Shown: positions 9,692-38,430 of the stretch, piece by piece
Position numbering within the stretch: position 1 is the stretch's first letter
Layout: each line of letters starts with the position of its first letter
Source of the DNA: an uncultured Acetobacteraceae bacterium
Lineage (GTDB): Bacteria > Pseudomonadota > Alphaproteobacteria > Acetobacterales > Acetobacteraceae
Length of the DNA: 39,581 nucleotides
Assembly (NCBI GenBank): GCA_903918315.1
Contig: CAIXEA010000232.1
Span: 1-39,581, forward strand
Reading direction: 5' to 3'
Notes under the pieces: generated by a model
What the model was told of the DNA's origin: nothing
What the model saw: the letters and a program-made list of their open reading frames with translations, nothing else
Database searches by the model: none
Program-made: the position numbers and the translations under genes

Positions 9692-10699
9692 ATGGCGCAT
9701 ATGACCGAACCGGCCTCCGCCCAGCAGACCCATTGCGTGCTCGAACATCGATTGTTCGCATTCTTCGACACTCCGTTCTTTCGCCGCTCGGACATGGATA
9801 CCACGGCTGTCATGGTGGTCCGGCTGGGTGAGCGTGAAGCGTCGATGCCACTGGACTCGATCCGCAGGGAGTTCGGTATCGCGGAAGACACGCCGGATGG
9901 CCGGATGCTCGCGATGATCAACGAGGCCCTCGATTTCGTCCCCGTGCTCCGGATCGGGGATCTATTGCCGTCGGAAATTCTGACAGGCAGCGCGAGTTGG
10001 GAGCCTGGGCCGGATTACCGCCGCCTCGCGTTGACCCGGCTGCAAGTGCAACTGGTGGCCTGGTTGCATGGTGAAAACGGGGCGGAGACCACGTTGTGGG
10101 ACCCCGCCGCGCTGGCGGGTGCCGATGAGGACCCGGTCTTGAGGCAGCAAATTCAGGACGCCTTCCAGCGCGCCGCGACGGCGCTCGATCTGCCGTCGAA
10201 AGAGGCGGTGATCGCGCAGATGGAGGATCTGGCTTATGAGCTGTCGTTCATCGAGGCATCGCGCGAACGGCTCCTGGATCGGGTCCGACGCCTGGCCCGG
10301 CGGCTGGAGCAGTGGGCGCGCAGCTTCCGCGGGGATAGCGAGCAGCGGACCACACTGGATCGCCTGCGCCACCTGAGCGGAGAGGCGTTGCGTCAGATCA
10401 ACCACCGCTTCGAACAGCAGGATGCCCAGACCGGCGAGATTCTGTCCGCGCTGCGCCATCTGGACAGCCATCGCACATTCATCCGCTCCAACCGCGATTG
10501 GCTGCACCGCTGCGATCTTGCCTGGGCGCCGTTGCTGGATGAATGGGATCAGGCCGGAGACGTCCGGACCGAGGCCCATCGGGCGCTGTTGGCGCGCACC
10601 TACCAGTTCCTCGCGCCCCGCTTCATGCCCGTGACCGAATGGCTCAAACCGCGCAAACCCGGGCGCAAGGACGCCCCTGGCCCCCGGATGGACTGGTAG
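9692..10699 (+). CDS. unrecognised 335-residue protein
   Basis: I do not recognise a family. The product is acidic to neutral and has no signal peptide or membrane segment. The N-terminal third includes FAFFDTPFFRRSDMD and a DFVPVLRIGDLLPSEIL segment. From about residue 165 to 265 it is strongly helical and rich in R, E, L and Q, ending with QINHRFEQQDAQTGEIL, which suggests helical bundles or a coiled coil. The C-terminal part has FLAPRFMPVTEWLKPRKPGRK with a basic tail. ATG 9692 or ATG 9701 could be the start; neither has a clear ribosome binding site, and a start at 9794 (MDTTAVMVV) is also possible given how close the CtrA-type site lies. It converges on the P450 gene with four bases between them. 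Confidence 0.75.
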   Translation: MAHMTEPASAQQTHCVLEHRLFAFFDTPFFRRSDMDTTAVMVVRLGEREASMPLDSIRREFGIAEDTPDGRMLAMINEALDFVPVLRIGDLLPSEILTGSASWEPGPDYRRLALTRLQVQLVAWLHGENGAETTLWDPAALAGADEDPVLRQQIQDAFQRAATALDLPSKEAVIAQMEDLAYELSFIEASRERLLDRVRRLARRLEQWARSFRGDSEQRTTLDRLRHLSGEALRQINHRFEQQDAQTGEILSALRHLDSHRTFIRSNRDWLHRCDLAWAPLLDEWDQAGDVRTEAHRALLARTYQFLAPRFMPVTEWLKPRKPGRKDAPGPRMDW

Positions 10700-10703
10700 C
10701 GGA

Positions 10704-11948
10704 TCAGCCCGCGTCCCAGCCGATGACGAAGCGCTCCGGCAGCGGTTTGCCTTCAAAGCTGAGGGGTTCGATCACCCGCGGATTCGGGCGCAGCAGGACC
10801 TGCCGGATGATTTCAGGGATGATGACACCGCCGACATAGCGGCCCATGCACTCATGCAGGCCATAGCCGAAATGGAAGGTATTGACTTGCGGCGGACGGG
10901 TTGGATCAAAAGCCGCCGGATTGGGGAACCGGACCGGGTCGTGCATCGCGGCGAGGACCAGCGGCAGCACGTCGGTACCGGCCGCGATCTCGGTCTGCCA
11001 GGGACGGCCGGCACCGAGCGTGTAGGGCGCCTCGGCGGTACGGAAGAGATAGGGCGAGATGGGGTTGAAGCGCAGCGCCTCCCACACATAAGCGTCGAAT
11101 TCAGCGGGATCGTCCGATTGCGCGGCGGCGGCCGCGGACGCCAGCACCTGCGGACGATCAAGAAGTTGCGCGAGGGCCTGGGCTGTTGCCTGGGACGCTG
11201 TCTCGACCGTGCCAATCAGTAATCCGCCGATATTCAGGCCTTTCCATTGCAGGCCATATTGGTCGGGCGTTTCAATATGGGTGCGCATCACCCGGGTCAC
11301 GACGTCATCGGGAACCGGGAGCATGGCGAGGATCGCGGCCTCCCGCTTGATCAGAAGCGATCCGATATACGCCACCAATTCCTTTTTGCAGCGCGTGACA
11401 TTGTCGTTCACCAGCCCCCGATCGGCTACGATATCCCAGGGATGGTTGTGAAAGGCATCGTACTGGTTCCAGAAGGACCATTCCGCCAGCTTACCCGGCG
11501 GGGCACCCGTCAGGCCGAAATAATCCTCCACCACCCGGATGGGGACATGGCGGGTCAGGCCCGGGACGGCGTCGATCTGGCCCTGGGCGGCATCGAGTGC
11601 CAGGTTGGTTTCTTTGGCGACCAGGGCGCGGATGCGGGGAATATCCGCCCGATCCAGAAAAGCCGACATCGCGGATTTGTCACGAAAATGGACGTCCGTA
11701 TCGTCCTGCGACATCAGGTAGGGTTTCATTTTTTCGTGATACGGCTTCACGCTGAAAACCTGATTGACCCGCAGGACTTCAATCACATCGTTGAAATCCG
11801 CGACGAACGTACAGACCGAAGTCTGGAGAATGGGGCGCCGGTCGCGGAGTTCGTTAACGAGCGGCAAAGCCTCGGTATCCAGCCACCCTCGGATCAGCGC
11901 GAACCGATCAGCTTCCGGCGTGGCGTCGATGCGATCGAGATAGCTCAT
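10704..11948 (-). CDS. cytochrome P450
   Basis: A soluble bacterial P450 of 414 residues. The haem loop FHFGYGLHECMGR gives the thiolate cysteine C367. The ExxR helix is in YVWEALRFNP. The I-helix segment GTVETAS keeps the acidic-threonine pair but has threonine where the usual AGxET has glycine. There is no membrane anchor. A good GGAGGGGG lies before the ATG. No ferredoxin or ferredoxin reductase gene is adjacent, so its redox partner lies elsewhere. The substrate is unknown. The next gene upstream, proB, is separated by 88 bp holding a terminator-like hairpin, so the P450 is probably transcribed on its own. Confidence 0.92.
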   Translation of the reverse strand: MSYLDRIDATPEADRFALIRGWLDTEALPLVNELRDRRPILQTSVCTFVADFNDVIEVLRVNQVFSVKPYHEKMKPYLMSQDDTDVHFRDKSAMSAFLDRADIPRIRALVAKETNLALDAAQGQIDAVPGLTRHVPIRVVEDYFGLTGAPPGKLAEWSFWNQYDAFHNHPWDIVADRGLVNDNVTRCKKELVAYIGSLLIKREAAILAMLPVPDDVVTRVMRTHIETPDQYGLQWKGLNIGGLLIGTVETASQATAQALAQLLDRPQVLASAAAAAQSDDPAEFDAYVWEALRFNPISPYLFRTAEAPYTLGAGRPWQTEIAAGTDVLPLVLAAMHDPVRFPNPAAFDPTRPPQVNTFHFGYGLHECMGRYVGGVIIPEIIRQVLLRPNPRVIEPLSFEGKPLPERFVIGWDAG

Positions 11949-29690: not shown

Positions 29691-32198
29691 TCAGGCCGCG
29701 TCGGCGTGCACCACCCCCAGCAGCCTCGCCTGGAGCGCCGGATCCGCCTCAAGGGCCTTGGCGCTGCCCTCGAACGCCACTTGCCCATTCACCAGCACAT
29801 AGGCGCGATCGACCAGCGGCAGCACGGTCTCGGCATGGTGCTCCACGATCACCATCGCCACCTTGCCGCGCAGGCGGGCCAGGGCGTCCATGACCTCTTT
29901 GACGATGGTGGGCGCCAGACCTTCGAACGGTTCGTCCAGCAGAATCAGCTTCGCCGGAACCACCAGCGCGCGGGCGATGGCCAGCATCTGGCGCTCGCCG
30001 CCCGACAGGCTCTCGGCCTTCGATTTCTGCAGGATCTTCAGCTTGGGGAACAGCTCGTAGACCTCATCCAGGGAAATGCCCCCGGGGCGCATGGCGATCT
30101 TGAGGTTGTCGATCACCGTGAGGTTGGGGAACAGGCGCCGCCCTTCCGGCACCAACGAGATCCCGCGCTGGTTGATCTCATAGCTTTTGGCGCCCGTGAT
30201 GCTCTGCCCGTCCAGCGTCATGGTGCCCGAGGTCGAACGCACCGTCCCGGTGATGGCCCGCAGCGTGGTGGTCTTGCCCACCCCGTTGCGGCCGAGCAGC
30301 GCCACGGCCTCGCCTTCATGAATGACCAGCGACAGGTCTTCCAGCACCACGCTGCCCGCGTATCCCGCGCGCAGCTTGTCGACCGTGAGCACCGGCTTGC
30401 TCATCGCATGCGCCCGTGCCTCCGCGTCGCTCGGCGAGGGCGGGGTGATGATCCGGTCCGCGCCCAGATAGGCGGTGATCACGTCGGGGTTGCGGGCGAC
30501 ATCGGCCGGCTTGCCGTCGGCGATCAGATGTCCCTGATGCAGCACGGTGATGCGGTCCGACAGCGCCAGCACGCGGTCGATGTCATGCTCGATCAGGAGC
30601 ACCGCATGCGTATTCGCCAATTCCCGGATCAGCGCGCCCACCACTTGGCGATCCGCCTCCGCCAGGCCCGCGAGGGGCTCATCGAGCAGCAGCATCTTGG
30701 CGTCGGTCGCGAGGGAGATCGCGATCTCCAGCAGCCGCTGTTCGCCATGCGCCAGATTCTGGCAAGGTTCCGCGGCGCGATCCTGCAGGCCCACGGCCGC
30801 CAGCAGCGACCAGGTCCGCGCGTTCAGATCGTCATAGTCATAGGCGTCGTGCCACAGACCGCGGCTGCGCGCGTCCTTGGCCTGCACCGCCACCCGCACA
30901 TTCTCAAACGCCGTCAGGTTGCGAAACACGCTGAGGATCTGGAACGAGCGCGACAGACCCAGCCGGATGCGCTTGTGCACCGGCATGGTCGTGATGTCGT
31001 GCCCGTCGAACACGATCCGGCCGGCGTTGGGCTGCAGAATGCCGGTCATCATGTTGAAGAACGTGGTCTTGCCGGCGCCATTGGGGCCGATGAAGCTGTG
31101 CAGCTGATACGGATAGACATCCAGGCTGATATCCGTCGCCACCACCAGCGATCCGAACCGCTTATGCAGCCCGGTCACCGTCAGGATCGGCTTTGCCGGA
31201 TCGAGCTTCGCGCCGCCGCCATGAAAGGGCGCGATGACCGCCGGGCGCGCCGGGATGCGGCCACGGGTCAGGGTCCAGTCCTCCCGCCCGCGCAGGCGGA
31301 ACACCAGGCCCTGGATGCCCTCCGGTGACGCCAATGCGAACAGGATCACGATCGGGGCGAAAATCAGCCACCACCCCTCGGTGATCGCGGACAGGCGATC
31401 CTCCAGCAGGATGAAGGCGATCGCCCCCCAGAGCGGGCCGAGGAAATGATGCACCCCGCCCAGCACCGCCATCAGGAGGGAGTCACCGGCATGCTGCCAG
31501 CTCAGATTATCCGCATAAGCGCCCTTGAGCATCAGCGACAACAGGCTGCCGGCATATCCGACGAAGCCGCCCATCAGCACGAAGGAGACGAATTTCAGCC
31601 GGAAGGTGTCGTAGCCCAGGCTCTGCACCCGCTGCTCATTGTCACGCAGCGCCTGCAAGGTGCGCCCGAACGGCGAATGCGCGATGCGCCACAGCAGCCA
31701 GAGCGCTACGGCGACGGTGGCGATGGTGAAGAAATGGAAGGTCCAGGGGCTGGTCAGCATCGGCCGGGGCACGCCCTGCACCCCGTTCTCCCCACCCGTC
31801 ACGTCGGTCCATTTATACGCGATCTCGAACGCGATCTGCGAAAAGGCCAAAGTGAGCAGGGAGAAATACAGGCCACGCCGGCGCAGGATGATAGCGGCGA
31901 TGATGGCGGCCAGGATCAGGGAGAACACGACCCCGAACACCAGTGCCACGATCTCATTGCCGGCGCCGCGCAGCATGATGAAAGCGACCGCGTAGCTGGC
32001 GCAGCCGAAGAAGACCGACGCACCGAAGGGCACCAGGCCGGTATGGCTGACCAGCAGGCACACGCCGGCGCCGTACAGCGTGTAGATCGCGATCTGGGTG
32101 ATCAGCCCGATCGGTGTGCCGATCGCGGCGGACAGGCCGGTCAGGGCCAGCAGGACCAGGACCGTCACGACGACGGGATGACGCAACATCGGGCTCAT
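29691..32198 (-). CDS. branched-chain-type ABC transporter, LivM-LivG-LivF triple fusion
   Basis: One 835-residue chain carries three normally separate subunits. Residues 1 to about 320 are a LivM-type permease (LRRRGLYFSLLTLAFSQIAFE is its signature region). About 333-585 is LivG with Walker A GPNGAGKTT near 371 and LAHGEQRLLEIA as signature. Residues 599-835 are LivF, starting MSKPVLTVDK, with Walker A GRNGVGKTT near 636 and LSGGERQMLAIARAL. The LivF part has exactly the length of a free LivF and keeps its methionine (30404), a likely relic of an old start codon. There is no stop or frameshift between parts. The start at 32198 overlaps the livH stop (ATGA). Substrates of Liv-type systems include amino acids, amides and aromatic acids; the context suggests shikimate-type acids. 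Confidence 0.93.
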   Translation of the reverse strand: MSPMLRHPVVVTVLVLLALTGLSAAIGTPIGLITQIAIYTLYGAGVCLLVSHTGLVPFGASVFFGCASYAVAFIMLRGAGNEIVALVFGVVFSLILAAIIAAIILRRRGLYFSLLTLAFSQIAFEIAYKWTDVTGGENGVQGVPRPMLTSPWTFHFFTIATVAVALWLLWRIAHSPFGRTLQALRDNEQRVQSLGYDTFRLKFVSFVLMGGFVGYAGSLLSLMLKGAYADNLSWQHAGDSLLMAVLGGVHHFLGPLWGAIAFILLEDRLSAITEGWWLIFAPIVILFALASPEGIQGLVFRLRGREDWTLTRGRIPARPAVIAPFHGGGAKLDPAKPILTVTGLHKRFGSLVVATDISLDVYPYQLHSFIGPNGAGKTTFFNMMTGILQPNAGRIVFDGHDITTMPVHKRIRLGLSRSFQILSVFRNLTAFENVRVAVQAKDARSRGLWHDAYDYDDLNARTWSLLAAVGLQDRAAEPCQNLAHGEQRLLEIAISLATDAKMLLLDEPLAGLAEADRQVVGALIRELANTHAVLLIEHDIDRVLALSDRITVLHQGHLIADGKPADVARNPDVITAYLGADRIITPPSPSDAEARAHAMSKPVLTVDKLRAGYAGSVVLEDLSLVIHEGEAVALLGRNGVGKTTTLRAITGTVRSTSGTMTLDGQSITGAKSYEINQRGISLVPEGRRLFPNLTVIDNLKIAMRPGGISLDEVYELFPKLKILQKSKAESLSGGERQMLAIARALVVPAKLILLDEPFEGLAPTIVKEVMDALARLRGKVAMVIVEHHAETVLPLVDRAYVLVNGQVAFEGSAKALEADPALQARLLGVVHADAA

Positions 32199-33070
32199 TC
32201 GAAACGCTCCCACCGCTCACCGAGCAACCCGCGGGGCCGGAGCAGCAGCATCAAAGCCATGAACAGATACATCATCGCGCCGGAGGCTTCCGGCCAGAAC
32301 TGGATGGTCATGGCGATGACCACGCCCACCAGCAGCCCGGCAATGACCGCGCCGGCGAAAGAGCCGAGGCCGCCAATCGCCACCACCACGAAGGCCGGCA
32401 TGATGGCATTGGTCGCCATCGCCGGGGTGATGGTCCAGAGCGGTGCGGCCAGCACCCCGGCGATGCCGGAAATGGCGCAGCCCAGCCCGAACACCCAGGT
32501 CAACACCTTCGGCAGATTGATCCCGAGCAAGCCAACCATCTCGGGGTCGCGGGAGCCGGCGCGCAGGATGCGGCCGAAGGGCGTGTGTTCCAGAAACAAC
32601 CAGAGCGCGACCAGCACCACGACCGTCGTGCCGAACACAGCGGCGCGATATTTGGTGATCAGCACCGGGCCCCAGATGAAGATCCCGGACAGGAAGGGCG
32701 GCGGGCTGAAGGGCTGGCCGATGCCGCCCCAGATCAGCCGTACCGAAGCCTCGATCAACAGCGCCAGGGCGAAGGTGACGATCAACGAGACCAGCGGTTC
32801 CTTGTCATACAGCCGCTGGATCAGCAGCCGCTCGGCGATCATGCCGATGGCGCCGACGCCAATCGGCGCCAGGATGACGGCGGGCCAGCCAAAATACTGA
32901 TACAGGGTCAGCGCGAAATACGCGCCGAGCGTGAAGAACACCCCATGCGCGAAATTCACGATGCCCAGCAGGCCGAAAATGATCGACAGGCCGATGGCAA
33001 TCAGAACGTAAAGTCCGCCAAGGACGAGACCGCTCGCCAACTGGGACAGAAGGACTTCGGGGTCGAGCAT
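32195..33070 (-). CDS. LivH-type ABC transporter permease
   Basis: A 291-residue inner-membrane permease of the branched-chain amino acid type with about eight membrane segments. LSIIFGLLGIVNFAHGVFFTLGAY near residues 28-51 is the LivH hallmark. RAGSRDPEMVGLLGIN near 190 is the cytoplasmic coupling segment contacting the ATPase. CGGAG precedes the ATG. It overlaps the fused livMGF gene by four bases and follows the binding-protein gene by 79 bp holding a strong hairpin. Confidence 0.93.
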   Translation of the reverse strand: MLDPEVLLSQLASGLVLGGLYVLIAIGLSIIFGLLGIVNFAHGVFFTLGAYFALTLYQYFGWPAVILAPIGVGAIGMIAERLLIQRLYDKEPLVSLIVTFALALLIEASVRLIWGGIGQPFSPPPFLSGIFIWGPVLITKYRAAVFGTTVVVLVALWLFLEHTPFGRILRAGSRDPEMVGLLGINLPKVLTWVFGLGCAISGIAGVLAAPLWTITPAMATNAIMPAFVVVAIGGLGSFAGAVIAGLLVGVVIAMTIQFWPEASGAMMYLFMALMLLLRPRGLLGERWERFE

Positions 33071-33088
33071 GGGAGCTCCGCATAAAAG

Positions 33089-33121
33089 CCTCCCTCCCCA
33101 GGACGACCGGGGGGAGGGAGG
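33089..33121 (-). terminator. hairpin between binding-protein and permease genes
   Basis: CCTCCCTCCCC (33089-33099) pairs with GGGGAGGGAGG (33111-33121) around an 11-base loop. It lies between the binding-protein stop (33150) and the livH start (33070). Such elements commonly let binding proteins be made in excess over the membrane subunits by partial termination or mRNA protection. No clear T run follows. Confidence 0.55.
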
Positions 33122-33149
33122 GGAAAGGGACAGCGTGCGGGCGGGGGCA

Positions 33150-34385
33150 TCACCCCATCTTGCAGCCGATTTCCTCTTCTGAGCCGAACACCTTCTGCAA
33201 GTCGGCCGGGTTCTCCGGCAGGGTCGCCTTCACGTCGAAGAAATCCCACTTGTCGGTGATCTTGTCCTTCACCGACACGGCCAGATTGCGCACCAGCATC
33301 TGATGGTCGAAGCGGCGGTAGCTGTAGGCGGTCGAGCCGGCCTGGAACTTCCAGGCCTCCAGCCCTTCGACGATCTTCATCGCGTCGGTGGACTTCACGG
33401 CATCGATCGAATCGAACAGCGACTTGGCGGTGATCCAGCCCATCCAGGCCTTATCCGCGGCCGGCTTGCCGTGCTTCTTGAGGTAGTCGGCGGCGAAGGC
33501 CTTTTCTTCCGGCGGGTTGGCGGGATTGTTGTAGTACCACATCTTGGTGAAGGTGCCGTTCGCGGCTTCGGCGCCAACAGACCAGATGTCGGTGTCGCCG
33601 ATGGCGATTTCGACGAAGGGGATCTTGCCCTTCATGCCCAGTTCGTTCCACTGCTTGAGGAAGGTGGACAGATCGCCGGCGGCCAGGCCACCCACGACCA
33701 CGTCCGGCTTGGCAGCCCGGATCTTGAGGATGAAAGAGCTGAAATCGGCGGTGTTCAGCGGCACTTCATCGGCGCCCACCTCGGTGCCGCCAGCGGCCTT
33801 GAGCAGTTCGCGCGAGGATTTCAGAATGTCCTGGCCGAAGGCGAAGGACGCCGTGATGTGGTACCAGCGCTTGCCGTAGCTCAGCGCATAGGGCGCCAGC
33901 ATACGCGATTGCACCACGACCGGCGTGTTCAGCCGGAACGTATAACGGTTGCAGTTCTTGCCCGTGATGTCGGTCGCCGCGGCATTGTCGCACACGAACG
34001 GGATTTTCAGCTCCGCCGCCTTGGCTTCCTCGGCCAGGGCGTTGGAGGACAGGGAGCCGCCGAGGATCGCGCAGACCTTATTTTCCTCGACCAGCTTCTG
34101 CATGTTCTGCGTCGCGGCCTGCGGGCTCGGCTCGTCGAGCCACACCAGTTCGGCCGGCTGGCCCATCAGCGTGTTGCCGCGCTCTTCCAGCGCGAGGAAC
34201 GTGCCATTGGCGAGGTATTCGGTCTGTGCCGCGATGCTGCCGGTCTTGGCGAGCAGGACGCCGATCCGGATCGGGTCCGCCGCACGCGCGATGTGCGGCA
34301 TCGCGAGCGGGGCGGCGGCCAGGCCGGTGGCCCCCAATAAAAGCTTACGGCGCGGCAGAACCAGCGCGGGTTTCAGAACGTCCAT
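33150..34385 (-). CDS. periplasmic substrate-binding protein of a Liv-type ABC transporter
   Basis: A 411-residue exported protein of the LivK/periplasmic-binding-protein type. The leader PRRKLLLGATGLAAAPLAMPHIARA has paired arginines and looks like a Tat signal, cleaved before ADPIRIGVL. The mature part has the two-lobe fold: PIRIGVLLAKTGSIAAQ, then VCAILGGSLSSNALA and AAKPDVVVGGLAAGD. GGGAGG lies seven bases before the ATG. It follows quiC by 76 bp on the same strand, so it is probably co-transcribed with it. Ligand specificity cannot be read, but the neighbourhood points to shikimate, quinate or dehydroshikimate. Confidence 0.9.
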   Translation of the reverse strand: MDVLKPALVLPRRKLLLGATGLAAAPLAMPHIARAADPIRIGVLLAKTGSIAAQTEYLANGTFLALEERGNTLMGQPAELVWLDEPSPQAATQNMQKLVEENKVCAILGGSLSSNALAEEAKAAELKIPFVCDNAAATDITGKNCNRYTFRLNTPVVVQSRMLAPYALSYGKRWYHITASFAFGQDILKSSRELLKAAGGTEVGADEVPLNTADFSSFILKIRAAKPDVVVGGLAAGDLSTFLKQWNELGMKGKIPFVEIAIGDTDIWSVGAEAANGTFTKMWYYNNPANPPEEKAFAADYLKKHGKPAADKAWMGWITAKSLFDSIDAVKSTDAMKIVEGLEAWKFQAGSTAYSYRRFDHQMLVRNLAVSVKDKITDKWDFFDVKATLPENPADLQKVFGSEEEIGCKMG

Positions 34386-34461
34386 GGTTTCCTCCCTTAG
34401 GTCCGGACTCCCCTTCAGGGGCCGGAATGGTCAACAGTTTGCGCCGAACATGGCGGATGTT

Positions 34462-36327
34462 CTAGCGGTTTGGGCGTTGCTGCGCCTGCGCGGCCATGCG
34501 CACCGGCGCATTGGCGGCGCCGTATTGCTGATAGTCCCCGATACGCTGGACGAATTCGAAGAAGAAGCGCCCATCGAAGGTCTCGGTATAAGCGTGCAGG
34601 AATTCGCCGTTCTCATCCTGATCATAGAGCAGGTTGTGCTGGCGAAGCTGTTCGATGCGCTGGTCGGACAGGCCCCATTTGGCGCCGATATCCTCGTAGT
34701 AGTTCGCGGGAATGCCCAGCAGGCGCGAACCCCGCGCGGTCGCCCGTTCCAATGTGCGCAGGATGTCATCGGTCGCCAAAGCGATGTGATGCACGCCGGC
34801 ACCGGCATAGGTGGTCAGGAACCGGCCAGTGGCGGTTTCCCGGCTTTCGGACACGTTCAATGGCAGCCGCACGGAGCGGTCGGGACTGACCATGGTGCGG
34901 CTGCGGATCAGGCCATAGGGGTCCGCGATCTCCCACAACTGTTCCGGGGCGAAGCCGAAAACGGCATGGTAGAACAGGACGAAATTATCCATCCGTCCCA
35001 TCGGCAGGGCCTGCGCGACATGGTCGACGGCGGTGACCAGAGCGTCCGGCGGGGTGTCCGCGGTCAGGTTGAAGTCGTCGTCGTAAATGGTGCGGCCGGT
35101 GGGGGCCGGCTGAACCAGATAGACCAGGGTCCCATCCGGTGCCCGCACCGCGGGAATGCGGCGCTCACCGTCCCCGATGCGTTCGCGCCATTCCGGGCAG
35201 AGCAGGCCATTGGCGCGCTCGATGGCCGCGGCGGCGTCATCGACCCGTAGCGCCATGGCGCAGACGGAGGGGCCATGGAACTGGAAATGTTCCGACGCCG
35301 CGCTGTCGGGCTCGCTGTTCAGAATGAGATTGACCCGTCCCTGACGGAACAAATCAACCGATTTGGAGCGATGCCGGCCGGCATGATGGAAACCGAGGCC
35401 GCGCAGCGTCTCCCCCAGGCGGATCGCGTGCTCGTCATCGACGGCGAATTCCAGAAACTCGACCCCATCGAACGCCGGGGGCGGGGGCAGCACGGTGCCG
35501 CCAGCTTCGGCTTCGACCATCAACAAGGACCGCAACCCATCACGGGCCGTGAGTCTCGCGGGGGCGGCTCGGAACTCGTCGTTGAAAATCTCAAGCGATA
35601 AGGGGCCGCGATAGCCGGATGCCAGGACCGCGCGCACGAAATCGGCGACGGGGAGCTGGCCCTGACCGGGGAAGTTGCGGAAATGCCGGCTCCAGGACAG
35701 GACGTCCATGGACAGGCGCGGCGCGTCGGCCAACTGCACGAAAAACAGCTTGTCGGCGGGCACATCGGCGATCCCCGAGGGATCGTCGTTCAGCGCCAGG
35801 GTATGGAAACTATCGACCAGCAGGCCCAAAGCCGGGTGGTTGCCTTCTTGCACGATCTTCCAGGCATGCCGCCATCGGTTGACGTGGCGGCCCCAGGCCA
35901 GGGCCTCATAACACACCCGCAGGCCGCGTCTGTGCGCCCGCTCCGCCATCTCCGCCAGATCGGCTGCCGCGCGGGCATCGTCGTTGATCGTGAGCGGGCT
36001 GACATTGCTGCATACCATCAGCAATTCGCAGCCCAGCGCCTGCATGACATCGAATTTGCGTTCGGCGCGGTCCATGTTGCGGGCGCGCTGCGGGTCCGGC
36101 ATCGCTTCGAAATCGCGGAACGGCTGGAAGCAGGTGATGCTCAGGCCAAGGGTCAGCGCCAGCGCGCGGATATCGTTCGGCGTGCCGTCGAAGGTCAGCA
36201 GATCGCTTTCGAAAATCTCCACCCCATCGAAGCCGATGGCCGCCGCGGCTTCCATTTTTTCGGGAAGGGTGCCGCTGAGGGACACGGTCGCGATCGATTT
36301 GGGGAGTGGCCGATGCAGGCGTGTCAT
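34462..36327 (-). CDS. quiC: 3-dehydroshikimate dehydratase, bacterial QuiC type
   Basis: Converts 3-dehydroshikimate to protocatechuate, feeding aromatic ring cleavage. The 621-residue protein has an N-terminal xylose-isomerase-like barrel (residues about 8-275). The four metal ligands E141, D172, Q198 and E246 are present with the same spacing as in Pseudomonas QuiC1. The C-terminal part (about 285-610) is a pair of VOC modules like 4-hydroxyphenylpyruvate dioxygenase, keeping H436, H514 and E591 as a possible second metal triad. Such two-domain fusions are typical of one QuiC lineage. It diverges from a quinate/shikimate dehydrogenase gene and a dyad overlaps its promoter region. Confidence 0.92.
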   Translation of the reverse strand: MTRLHRPLPKSIATVSLSGTLPEKMEAAAAIGFDGVEIFESDLLTFDGTPNDIRALALTLGLSITCFQPFRDFEAMPDPQRARNMDRAERKFDVMQALGCELLMVCSNVSPLTINDDARAAADLAEMAERAHRRGLRVCYEALAWGRHVNRWRHAWKIVQEGNHPALGLLVDSFHTLALNDDPSGIADVPADKLFFVQLADAPRLSMDVLSWSRHFRNFPGQGQLPVADFVRAVLASGYRGPLSLEIFNDEFRAAPARLTARDGLRSLLMVEAEAGGTVLPPPPAFDGVEFLEFAVDDEHAIRLGETLRGLGFHHAGRHRSKSVDLFRQGRVNLILNSEPDSAASEHFQFHGPSVCAMALRVDDAAAAIERANGLLCPEWRERIGDGERRIPAVRAPDGTLVYLVQPAPTGRTIYDDDFNLTADTPPDALVTAVDHVAQALPMGRMDNFVLFYHAVFGFAPEQLWEIADPYGLIRSRTMVSPDRSVRLPLNVSESRETATGRFLTTYAGAGVHHIALATDDILRTLERATARGSRLLGIPANYYEDIGAKWGLSDQRIEQLRQHNLLYDQDENGEFLHAYTETFDGRFFFEFVQRIGDYQQYGAANAPVRMAAQAQQRPNR

Positions 36328-36363
36328 GGCGTCGATGCTCCCCGTTTGGGCGTTGACGTGGAT

Positions 36364-36381
36364 TAACTAGATGGTTAGTTA
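36364..36381. promoter_or_regulatory. probable TetR-family operator upstream of quiC
   Basis: TAACTA-N6-TAGTTA is an inverted repeat 37-54 bp before the quiC start and 59-76 bp before the dehydrogenase start. Its right half carries GTTAGT at the same distance from the dyad centre as the site at 37985-38004 before the tetR gene. This supports control of the divergent catabolic genes by the nearby TetR protein. Confidence 0.55.
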
Positions 36382-36439
36382 CAGGTCTCGCGGGCGTGAC
36401 ACAAGCCCCAAAATCACATAACCGCGGAGCCCCGCCCCC

Positions 36440-37288
36440 ATGCGCCCAACCGTCCTCGTCGGCCTGATCGGCACCGGCATCCAGGCCTCCCGCAGCCCGG
36501 CCTTGCATATGCGGGAAGGGGAGGCGCAGGGCCTGTCCTACCAATACAAGCTGATCGATCTGACCCGGCTGGGATTGGGGGTCGATGCGCTGCCGGAGCT
36601 GCTGACCGCGGCGGAGCGGCTCGGCTTCGACGGTCTCAACATCACCCACCCCTGCAAGCAGGCCGTCATTCCTTATCTGGATGCGTTGTCGCCGGATGCG
36701 CGGGCCTTGGGCGCGGTGAATACGGTCGTATTCAAAGACGGCAAACGCACCGGCCATAACACCGACTGGTATGGCTTCGCGGAAGGCTTTCGCCGCGCCC
36801 TCCCCGATGTCAATCGCGGCCACGTCGTCCAGTTCGGGGCCGGAGGCGCCGGCGCCGCGGTCGCCCATGCGGCACTGACGCTCGGCATGACACAACTGAC
36901 ATTGATCGATGTTGATCCGAGCCGGGCCGCGACGGTCGCCGCCGGGTTGAATGAGCGATTCGGTCCCGGCCGTGCGGTCGTGGGCACCGACGCCGCGACG
37001 GCGGTGGCGGGCGCCGATGGCATCATCAATGCGACTCCGCTCGGCATGGACGCACATCCCGGCATGGCCCTGCCGGCATCGCTGCTCCGTCCGGCCCTTT
37101 GGGTGGCGGAGGTGGTGTATTTCCCCTTGGAGACGGAACTGCTGCGCACCGCCCGCGCCATCGGCTGCCGCACCGCCGATGGCGGCGGCATGGCGGTGTT
37201 TCAGGCGGTGGAGGCATTTCGTCTGTTTTCCGGCGTCACGCCGGATGCTGAACGGATGCGCCAGCATTTCGCCTCGATGGGGGCCTGA
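36440..37288 (+). CDS. quinate/shikimate dehydrogenase
   Basis: A 282-residue oxidoreductase of the AroE/QsuD family. GLIGTGIQASRSPALH near residues 8-23 binds the substrate carboxylate. K73 in NITHPCKQ and D109 in NTDWYGF are the catalytic pair. GAGGAG at 133-138 is the dinucleotide loop. An aspartate (D157 in LIDVDPSRA) ends the second strand where biosynthetic AroE has an NADP-selecting arginine, which indicates NAD and a catabolic role, as in Corynebacterium QsuD. It oxidises quinate to dehydroquinate and shikimate to dehydroshikimate, the quiC substrate. It is divergent to quiC and its stop abuts the stop of tetR. Confidence 0.9.
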   Translation: MRPTVLVGLIGTGIQASRSPALHMREGEAQGLSYQYKLIDLTRLGLGVDALPELLTAAERLGFDGLNITHPCKQAVIPYLDALSPDARALGAVNTVVFKDGKRTGHNTDWYGFAEGFRRALPDVNRGHVVQFGAGGAGAAVAHAALTLGMTQLTLIDVDPSRAATVAAGLNERFGPGRAVVGTDAATAVAGADGIINATPLGMDAHPGMALPASLLRPALWVAEVVYFPLETELLRTARAIGCRTADGGGMAVFQAVEAFRLFSGVTPDAERMRQHFASMGA

Positions 37289-37939
37289 TCAGGCGCCTCG
37301 CATATAACCGGCGATCACGTCGCGGATCATCGCCTTGTGCCGTTCCCGGACCGCGGGGGCGCCCATGTCGCGGCCGAACAATGTGCCGAAGGTGTGCCGG
37401 TTGGAAACGCGATAGTAACACAGCGCACTGATCATCATATGCAAATCCACCGCGTCGATGTCGCGGTGGAACTGTCCGGCCGCCTTGCCGCGGGCAAGAA
37501 TCGTCGCCAGGCTGGTGATGACGGACGAGTTCAGGTTGCGCAGCGTTTCCGACTGCCTGAGATGCACGCCATGGTGAATGTTCTCGACGCTGACCAGCCG
37601 GACGAAATCGGGGTTTTCCTCGTGGTAGTCGAAGGTGAAATCGACCATCTGGTTCAAGGCCTCGATCGGGGTCAGCCGATCGAGGTCGAGCGTCAGCTCC
37701 AACCCGCGAATGCCGCCATAGACCTGTTCCAGCACCGCGAGGTAAAGGCCTTCCTTGCTGCCGAAATAGTAATAGATCATGCGCTTGGTGGTGCTGATCT
37801 GCGCGGCGATCGCATCGACCCGCGCGCCGCTCAACCCATGTTCGGCGAAGGCCCGACGGGCGACCGCCAGGATGTTCTGCCGGGTCTTTTCCGCGTCCAG
37901 CTTGCGGGACGGGGCGGTTGGGTTGCGGCTGTCCGGCAC
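37289..37939 (-). CDS. TetR/AcrR family regulator
   Basis: A 216-residue repressor-type regulator. The N-terminal HTH domain spans residues about 18-64: TRQNILAVARRAFAEHGLSG, then VDAIAAQISTTKRMIYYYFGSKEGLY. The remaining helices form the ligand and dimer domain. It begins with GTG at 37939 preceded by AAGGA. It lies next to the quinate/shikimate dehydrogenase gene, and dyads with a shared half-site occur before its own gene and before quiC, so autoregulation and control of the locus are likely. The inducer would be a pathway acid, by inference. Confidence 0.9.
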   Translation of the reverse strand: MPDSRNPTAPSRKLDAEKTRQNILAVARRAFAEHGLSGARVDAIAAQISTTKRMIYYYFGSKEGLYLAVLEQVYGGIRGLELTLDLDRLTPIEALNQMVDFTFDYHEENPDFVRLVSVENIHHGVHLRQSETLRNLNSSVITSLATILARGKAAGQFHRDIDAVDLHMMISALCYYRVSNRHTFGTLFGRDMGAPAVRERHKAMIRDVIAGYMRGA

Positions 37940-37963
37940 GGATTGGGGTCCTTGGGGCGGGGT

Positions 37964-38004
37964 GGTTCGTGTGATGGGCAGAAATTCACGAACCAGTTAG
38001 TGAA
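37964..38004. promoter_or_regulatory. probable TetR operator before the regulator gene
   Basis: The 20-bp dyad at 37985-38004 reads TTCAC, G, AAC, CA, GTT, A, GTGAA. Only the pair G/A and the central pair fail to match. It lies 46-65 bp before the GTG start of the TetR gene. A further half-site GGTTCGTG at 37964-37971 is the complement of CACGAACC at 37987-37994. The right half shares GTTAGT with the dyad before quiC. Confidence 0.6.
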
Positions 38005-38124
38005 TGCAGAATGGCGGAATTGGCACCCGGATGCAACGGCCGTCCTTCACCGGCGGCGACAAGGCCTTGTCACACAAGCCCGGTGGTGCTCAAAGCGGCG
38101 GCCAAACAACCCGGATTGCCCCCT

Positions 38125-38430
38125 ATGAACAACACCGCCCCCCTTGGTTTTCCCGAAGCTGCGCGCCGTCTCGGCGTCCCTGTCCGGGTGCTACGCCGCG
38201 CTATTCGCGCCGGCCGCATTCCCGCCCCGGCGAATGGCGCCGCCACGGCCGCGCTGTCCGCCGAGTGGCTGGCCAGCGCCCAGGCCGCCGCCGCTGCCTC
38301 GCCCCGCGCCCTGAGCCGGGCGGCTGCCCAGACCGTGCCCGCCTTCGCGCGCTATGAAGGCACCTCGGCCTGGCACAAATACAACAACCGTGTCCGCGAA
38401 TACGCGCGGTTCCGTGCCACGGCCGGCTAG
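38125..38430 (+). CDS. small protein with excisionase-like helix-turn-helix
   Basis: I do not recognise a family. The 101-residue product from ATG 38125 has GFPEAARRLGVPVRVLRRAIRAGRIP near residues 8-33, a pattern like MerR- or excisionase-type winged helices that recognise DNA. An alanine-rich middle and a basic, aromatic end (SAWHKYNNRVREYARFRA) follow. A longer frame opens at 38011 but has no start features. No integrase or phage gene is nearby, so a recombination role is not supported. It ends 51 bp before a strong hairpin. Confidence 0.65.
   Translation: MNNTAPLGFPEAARRLGVPVRVLRRAIRAGRIPAPANGAATAALSAEWLASAQAAAAASPRALSRAAAQTVPAFARYEGTSAWHKYNNRVREYARFRATAG

Follow-up and report, generated by a model that had tools for sequence, protein, structure and literature searches.

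A fused Liv-type importer linked to a QuiC dehydratase gene: a probable uptake and catabolic locus for a shikimate-type acid in an uncultured Acetobacteraceae bacterium

We analysed a stretch of 39,581 nucleotides from an uncultured Acetobacteraceae bacterium (contig CAIXEA010000232.1 of assembly GCA_903918315.1), referred to here as the window. One of its gene clusters is probably an inducible, TetR-controlled operon for taking up a shikimate-type (hydroaromatic) acid and carrying out the first stage of its catabolism, served by a fused Liv-type importer whose cargo is predicted from gene context. Four genes run head to tail on the minus strand: quiC (34462-36327), which encodes a two-domain 3-dehydroshikimate dehydratase; the gene for a Liv-type periplasmic substrate-binding protein (33150-34385), the predicted hydroaromatic-acid receptor; the permease gene livH (32195-33070); and a single LivM-LivG-LivF fusion (29691-32213). 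The gene for a QsuD-type quinate/shikimate dehydrogenase (36440-37288, plus strand) diverges from quiC, and a TetR-family regulator gene (37289-37939, minus strand; TetR_N and TetR_C_29 domains) faces the dehydrogenase gene. The genes named in an original prediction for this DNA are all present and open, as judged by a sequence check and domain scans. The coordinates also agree with its claim that quiC and the transporter lie on one strand, 76 bp apart (34386-34461). The gap between the binding-protein gene and livH is 79 bp.

The QuiC protein consists of a TIM-barrel N domain with an E/D/Q/E site and an HPPD-like C domain (Pfam AP_endonuc_2 and Glyoxalase_5). Its residues 8-618 align with Pseudomonas putida QuiC (5hmq) at 717 bits. 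The alignment with the NCBIfam QuiC equivalog NF042435 is full length, with a score of 806 bits that is below the 1200 cut-off. Residues E141, D172, Q198 and E246, previously put forward as metal ligands, are all kept and align with residues 134, 165, 191 and 239 of 5hmq, which we take to be the metal ligands of that enzyme. The dehydrogenase matches Corynebacterium glutamicum QsuD (3jyo) best (276 bits over residues 2-279). Its score against PRK12549, a broader shikimate dehydrogenase model, is 459 bits and above the cut-off, yet it falls below the 515 cut-off of the equivalog PRK14027, with 302 bits. The protein has the Lys/Asp pair of the AroE family (K73 and D109), presumably with the usual roles, and LIDVDPSR at residues 155-162, which we take to be an NAD-type motif. 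These features bear out the earlier assignment to the NAD-type quinate/shikimate dehydrogenases and suggest a QsuD-type enzyme, putatively for quinate as well as shikimate. The quiC gene of the window is the sole quiC match in its own genome.

The transporter has the domains of a Liv/HAAT-type ATP-binding cassette (ABC) system: a Peripla_BP_6 binding protein (PF13458, 210 bits), two BPD_transp_2 permease domains, in LivH (PF02653, 132 bits) and in the fusion (PF02653 at residues 34-293), and two ABC_tran ATPase domains. The fusion carries its permease domain and both ABC_tran stretches in a single polypeptide, with Walker A motifs at 376 and 641. Because of an ATGA overlap with livH, its likely start is at 32198, giving 835 amino acids. 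What had been described as a complete Liv-type ABC system is thus complete in its domains but not in five genes, as LivM, LivG and LivF share one open reading frame (ORF). Scanning GTDB genomes with the binding protein yielded 76 transporter loci (cited here by L numbers), and their neighbours were compared with the window proteins and clustered. Some of the fetched flanks are short, and contig ends affect some loci. Genes in the relatives were called with a simple codon-usage script, which may misplace starts, missed quiC in L116 and split it in L003. Among the 63 loci whose sequence continues for 4.3 kb or more beyond the binding-protein gene, 60 have a fused ORF of at least 790 amino acids. 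The fusion is therefore a family trait; an assembly error as its origin is ruled out by these loci. The three exceptions are L024, where the ORF is broken, and L056 and L072, which have no matches to LivH or the fusion. Other arrangements were observed as well. Two tandem binding-protein genes precede one livH-livMGF in L007 and L009, both beside quiC, possibly reflecting two ligands for one permease. On a Roseomonas plasmid (L108), an IS5 transposase gene (10101-10919) separates the binding-protein gene from livH. The window's own genome, G000, holds a binding-protein paralogue with 37% identity (L084; C16:14000-33900); the next two genes there, encoding 280 and 398 amino acids, are unlabelled.

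The transporter and quiC are linked repeatedly. quiC adjoins the transporter in 15 of the 76 loci (L002-L005, L007-L014, L016, L050 and L076), so the outcome that the original prediction had held to be decisive against it, a transporter never near quiC in homologous loci, is not what we found. A constant quiC neighbourhood of homologous binding proteins, which it had also raised, was not found either, as quiC was seen in those 15 loci only. An AroE-family gene is present in the fetched flanks of 49 of the 76 loci, and such genes are the commonest non-transporter neighbours; from the four AroE homologues in the window's 5.04-Mb genome about 0.016 would be expected per 20 kb, with the reservation that related loci are not independent. 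The alignment and tree exclude two binding proteins shorter than 365 amino acids (L035 and L070) and the L076 stub. On the resulting tree, which comprises 77 binding proteins, 2 changes suffice to account for the quiC label, compared with a shuffled mean of 15.5. Of the 18 rows in the smallest well-supported set that contains the window together with every quiC row, 17 are at quiC loci. L010 has the order tetR-SBP-livH-livMGF-sdh-quiC. Its binding protein is 82% identical to that of the window; the corresponding values are 62% and 46% for the N and C domains of QuiC and 43% for the dehydrogenase. In the QuiC tree, the other 14 quiC genes with the fused transporter form one group, and the L010 protein lies far from other QuiCs (end branch 2.1), although its long branch makes this place unsure. 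The different gene order of L010 and the isolated position of its QuiC suggest, without proving it, that the transporter and quiC were joined a second time in L010.

The transporter also occurs in a second setting. Here its neighbours are a divergent AroE-like gene, flavoproteins akin to ketosteroid and 4-oxocyclohexene-carboxylate dehydrogenases (scoring under the model cut-offs), NIPSNAP, a TIM barrel, IclR and Gfo/Idh. This cluster of AroE-like and flavin adenine dinucleotide (FAD) enzymes without quiC is the commonest setting (30 of the 77 aligned rows), and annotated plasmid records agree. Its AroE-like protein in L022, a Bradyrhizobium member, is 30% identical to the window dehydrogenase. 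The AroE-like, ketosteroid/ChcC-like flavoprotein, NIPSNAP and TIM-barrel genes recur beside the fused transporter, in the 10 kb around the match, in L022, L027, L054, L092, L105 and L106; NIPSNAP was not seen in the stretch of L106 examined, and the L022 TIM barrel has a weak match to the QuiC N domain. The cluster resembles a pathway, so far undescribed, by which an alicyclic acid would be aromatised. Because many loci carry an AroE-like gene and ketosteroid-dehydrogenase-like flavoproteins and not quiC, ‘hydroaromatic acid’ is a safer term for the predicted cargo than ‘shikimate’. A third setting, in four of the 77 rows, has an aldehyde dehydrogenase and an acetolactate-synthase-like thiamine diphosphate (ThDP) enzyme. 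Loci of this type are L049, L058, L077, L107 and L109. The ThDP enzyme of L109 also scores 268 bits against IolD (cut-off 715). In the annotated records L107 and L109, the transporter is further accompanied by genes of cupin, dehydratase or epimerase type. None of the three settings applies to the other 26 rows (19 ‘other’ and 7 ‘AroE only’), in some cases because of contig ends. The fused LivH and LivM-G-F importers could constitute an as yet unnamed transporter family of alpha- and betaproteobacteria, powered by ATP, whose cargo would be hydroaromatic (shikimate/quinate-like) acids. Many members would feed the undescribed aromatisation route instead of QuiC, the window representing a branch joined by quiC. 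We put this forward as a tentative possibility. Alternatively, the family may import another polyhydroxy alicyclic or cyclitol-like acid, processed by AroE-like, Gfo/Idh, short-chain dehydrogenase/reductase and TIM-barrel proteins, and the quiC operon would use the importer for a shikimate relative. The prevalence of the second setting and the ThDP enzyme, aldehyde dehydrogenase and epimerases of the third favor such a cargo, but the enzymes of the quiC clade are those of the standard shikimate route, and we consider this alternative unlikely.

Genes for the next catabolic step are found at some of the quiC loci. In seven loci (L007-L009, L011-L013 and L016, the last being Acidisphaera sp. S103), pcaH- and pcaG-like genes lie directly 5' of quiC and the transporter. 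The L008 pair, the sole pair scanned for families, has pcaG above the cut-off and pcaH just below it, apparently shortened by the gene caller. In the window's own genome, contig C102 carries a pcaH gene above the family cut-off, with a pcaG-like gene and a pcaB-like gene (just under the cut-off) beside it. Elsewhere in this genome (L096; C137:5000-24900), another AroE-like gene adjoins a flavin mononucleotide-dependent monooxygenase gene and lies about 2 kb from an intradiol-dioxygenase-like gene. The importer could act on the product side and take up protocatechuate or another hydroxybenzoate, as the rhizobial PcaMNVWX system does. The importer and QuiC would then both supply the protocatechuate branch, which alone would account for their adjacency. 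According to the available part of PMC4495286, rhizobial PcaM is a protocatechuate-binding protein of the Liv (HAAT) type. The seven loci are consistent with this explanation, and so is L068, one of the 30 AroE and FAD rows, which has no quiC and in which roughly 8 kb separate pcaHG from the binding-protein gene. However, no match to the PcaH model was found on the window contig or in the flanks of L002-L005 and L050, and L068 is the only one of those 30 rows with pcaHG in the fetched flank. In addition, the commonest non-transporter neighbours are dehydrogenases, which act before aromatisation. Uptake of protocatechuate therefore seems rather improbable to us.

The binding protein itself was compared with characterised receptors. 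Its AlphaFold model has a mean predicted local distance difference test score of 90.4, and the best Foldseek matches are Liv-type binding proteins. The titles of the first three (3i09, 4maa and 3n0w) show no ligand; 4ey3 and 4evq carry hydroxybenzoate, p-hydroxybenzoate binders among the fold matches being a further point for the product-side explanation. Could this be an ordinary branched-chain amino acid importer that lies beside quiC by chance? The permeases of the relatives bear database names of branched-chain amino acid transport, and the equivalents of S79 and E226 in Escherichia coli LivK are kept. The binding protein is 21% identical to LivK, and its score against the NCBIfam branched-chain binding-protein model is 57 bits, far from the cut-off of 477. 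Pocket positions were placed by sequence alignment to LivK alone; we assume W18, S79, T102, Y202 and E226 of LivK to be ligand residues. W18, T102 and Y202 are replaced by Q, A and A in the window protein. Moreover, the linkage to AroE-family or quiC genes spans alpha- and betaproteobacteria. A chance neighbour of this kind is very unlikely. Five of the 11 LivK-equivalent positions (Q54, S113, N134, A136 and K312) are identical in all 17 quiC rows and all 30 AroE and FAD rows, which favors a common alicyclic or cyclitol-like cargo; the other six (A135, A137, V156, F183, A235 and E259) vary between these rows, which argues against it, all 11 being subject to the limits of the LivK alignment. 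E259 is found in all 17 quiC rows but not across the whole transporter family. The further columns D238, D266 and W283 are identical in the quiC and the AroE and FAD rows, D266 and W283 being uninformative on specificity because they are invariant in the whole alignment. Judged from the alignment, the pocket residues are compatible with a carboxylic acid that is not leucine, and the ligands of the two settings may be related; the residues do not distinguish shikimate from quinate, 3-dehydroshikimate or protocatechuate.

Within the family, the transporter and quiC tend to occur in the same genomes. Among 150 Acetobacteraceae genomes, the binding protein was found in 12 (called at an identity of at least 60%). 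By reading of the match table, 38 genomes have a QuiC-type protein, a few of these proteins being incomplete, and 19 more reach the HPPD-like part only. quiC is present in 8 of the 12 genomes with the transporter versus 30 of the 138 without it (Fisher p = 0.002, uncorrected for kinship). Transporter and quiC are adjacent in two of the eight genomes that hold both, the window's genome G000 and G099. In G069, an AroE-like/FAD cluster begins with the transporter (L092), and quiC lies elsewhere with its own dehydrogenase gene (L098). We also fetched 20 further quiC places of Acetobacteraceae, of which 19 gave a called QuiC. The original prediction regarded an ABC system at such a locus as unusual, known importers being mostly permeases of the major facilitator superfamily (MFS). 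It is less singular than that, as a different, unfused Liv-type ABC system lies near quiC in three of the 19 (L110, L113 and L118); ShiA-like MFS genes occur at two (L121, 322 bits; L128, 247 bits; both below the PRK09952 cut-off of 538). The L110 and L118 binding proteins have no convincing match to that of the window; in L113, tetR lies between quiC and the Liv genes, and no Liv-type binding protein was found in the stretch. Another MFS gene is near quiC in L126, and TctC-type binding proteins are near it in L123 and L125 (by Pfam) and L124 (by cluster). At L116, where quiC was not called, the quiC place has an MFS gene from the L121 cluster as its neighbour. At the remaining quiC loci no transporter was recognised among the annotated genes, transmembrane-rich neighbours being left unannotated in several loci. 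TetR relatives are found at six of the 19. Several unrelated importers in the quiC slot would be expected if the slot serves a pathway substrate.

The TetR control proposed earlier now has a conserved candidate operator, predicted from sequence. A dyad, ACKAACYRGTTMGT, is common to the upstream regions of the relatives. Allowing one mismatch, it has 19 matches in the 1.39 Mb covered by the loci. Of these, 17 precede tetR, dehydrogenase or pcaH-like genes; this count is partly circular, since the dyad was drawn from the same upstream regions. The 17 sit in TetR/quiC-type loci, two of which (L035 and L070) have tetR and dehydrogenase genes with no quiC in view. Control dyads with shuffled halves (61 dyads) gave a mean of 1.5 matches and at most 9. 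In the later quiC set, outside the source set, the dyad occurs with one mismatch 5' of the unrelated livH in L113 and of a dehydrogenase-MFS pair in L126; two-mismatch sites are present in L121, L124 and L127 and, twice, in L125. In the window, the candidate operator 5' of tetR (37984-38005) has its core, ACGAACCAGTTAGT, at 37988-38001, with no mismatch to the relatives' dyad; it is the sole perfect match found in the whole genome. Between the binding-protein gene and livH, a minus-strand hairpin (33071-33149; -34.3 kcal/mol, z -2.52, equalled by 3 of 200 shuffles) is followed by CUUUUAU. It was not called as a terminator and may lower permease expression, a possible step-down. The gap between quiC and the binding-protein gene folds no better than its shuffles (z -0.01). 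Between tetR and a LysR gene lies a small ORF (38011-38430) with weak, below-cut-off matches to excisionase-like helix-turn-helix proteins. The best NCBIfam match of the LysR gene is PtrR, below the cut-off.

Several observations weigh against an operon for a shikimate-type acid. quiC was not found in the fetched flanks of 61 of the 76 transporter loci, some of these flanks being short, and four of the 12 family genomes with the transporter have no quiC. These counts rule out a transporter exclusive to quiC. The original proposal of a TetR-controlled uptake and catabolic locus is supported in part, as the linkage of transporter, quiC, dehydrogenase and TetR genes is conserved. Six of the eight genomes that hold both have the transporter and quiC on separate contigs of a draft assembly. 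In G064, quiC lies with pcaHG-like genes and the ShiA-like MFS gene of L128, and the fused ABC system is elsewhere (L091); this genome and G069 argue against strict pairing. Aromatic acids are bound in some of the solved structures closest to the binding protein. Its E259 aligns with LivK E226, which we take to hold the amino group of the ligand, so that the sequence permits an amino acid ligand. The dyad in the divergent quiC/dehydrogenase promoter region (36362-36381; ATTAACTAGATGGTTAGTTA) is a variant with two mismatches to the strict dyad and a different half-site spacing, although the same or a near sequence is found at the same place in L002, L003, L004, L005 and L050. Counting the perfect site, the genome of the window has six sites with at most one mismatch, scarcely more than the control (four). 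No dyad was seen in L010, and a scan for consensus sigma-70 promoters found none in the locus.

The locus combines features of several known systems. The rhizobial PcaMNVWX system is likewise a Liv/HAAT-type ABC transporter tied to the protocatechuate branch; as far as the systems can be compared by description, its regulator is the LysR-type PcaQ, whereas the window has a TetR gene (PMC4495286, in part). P. putida QuiC and Corynebacterium QsuB are also two-domain 3-dehydroshikimate dehydratases, and their transporter partners differ (PMC7442255, in part). The subunit set and fold are those of E. coli LivKHMGF, in which livM, livG and livF are separate genes. Liv-type binding proteins for hydroxybenzoates and phenylpropenoids in Rhodopseudomonas palustris share the fold and superfamily of the window protein (PMC3223731, PMC3610893, both in part). 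The ligand library for the R. palustris proteins held quinic and shikimic acid; the available part of that study names no binder of either and reports that these acids do not support R. palustris growth (PMC3223731). The available part of PMC6449761 has nothing on quinate.

We propose the following mechanism. The periplasmic binding protein would capture the acid, and LivH and the LivM-LivG-LivF fusion would import it with ATP. The NAD-dependent dehydrogenase would convert shikimate to 3-dehydroshikimate; alternatively, it may convert quinate to 3-dehydroquinate, in which case a dehydroquinase from elsewhere would be needed. QuiC would then form protocatechuate from 3-dehydroshikimate, and protocatechuate would probably be cleaved by the PcaGH encoded on another contig. 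The quiC and transporter genes would be co-transcribed, and TetR may keep tetR and the divergent quiC/dehydrogenase promoter repressed as long as no pathway intermediate is bound.

Shikimate and quinate are common plant acids. The bacterial proteins known for their uptake, as named in the available parts of the cited papers, are single-protein permeases, such as the quinate transporter QsuA and the shikimate transporter ShiA of Corynebacterium (PMC11258901). These are secondary permeases, whereas the window encodes an ATP-driven system with a binding protein. Among the papers listed by full-text searches of the open-licence literature, we recognised no report of an ABC importer for shikimate or quinate. 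If our reading is correct, a binding-protein-dependent, ATP-driven importer would allow scavenging of such acids at low concentration. Related genes now labelled ‘branched-chain amino acid transporter’ would receive a corrected name, and the binding protein would provide a receptor for shikimate sensors. In rhizobia and Burkholderiaceae, the wider transporter family points to a pathway of aromatisation that is still unexplored.

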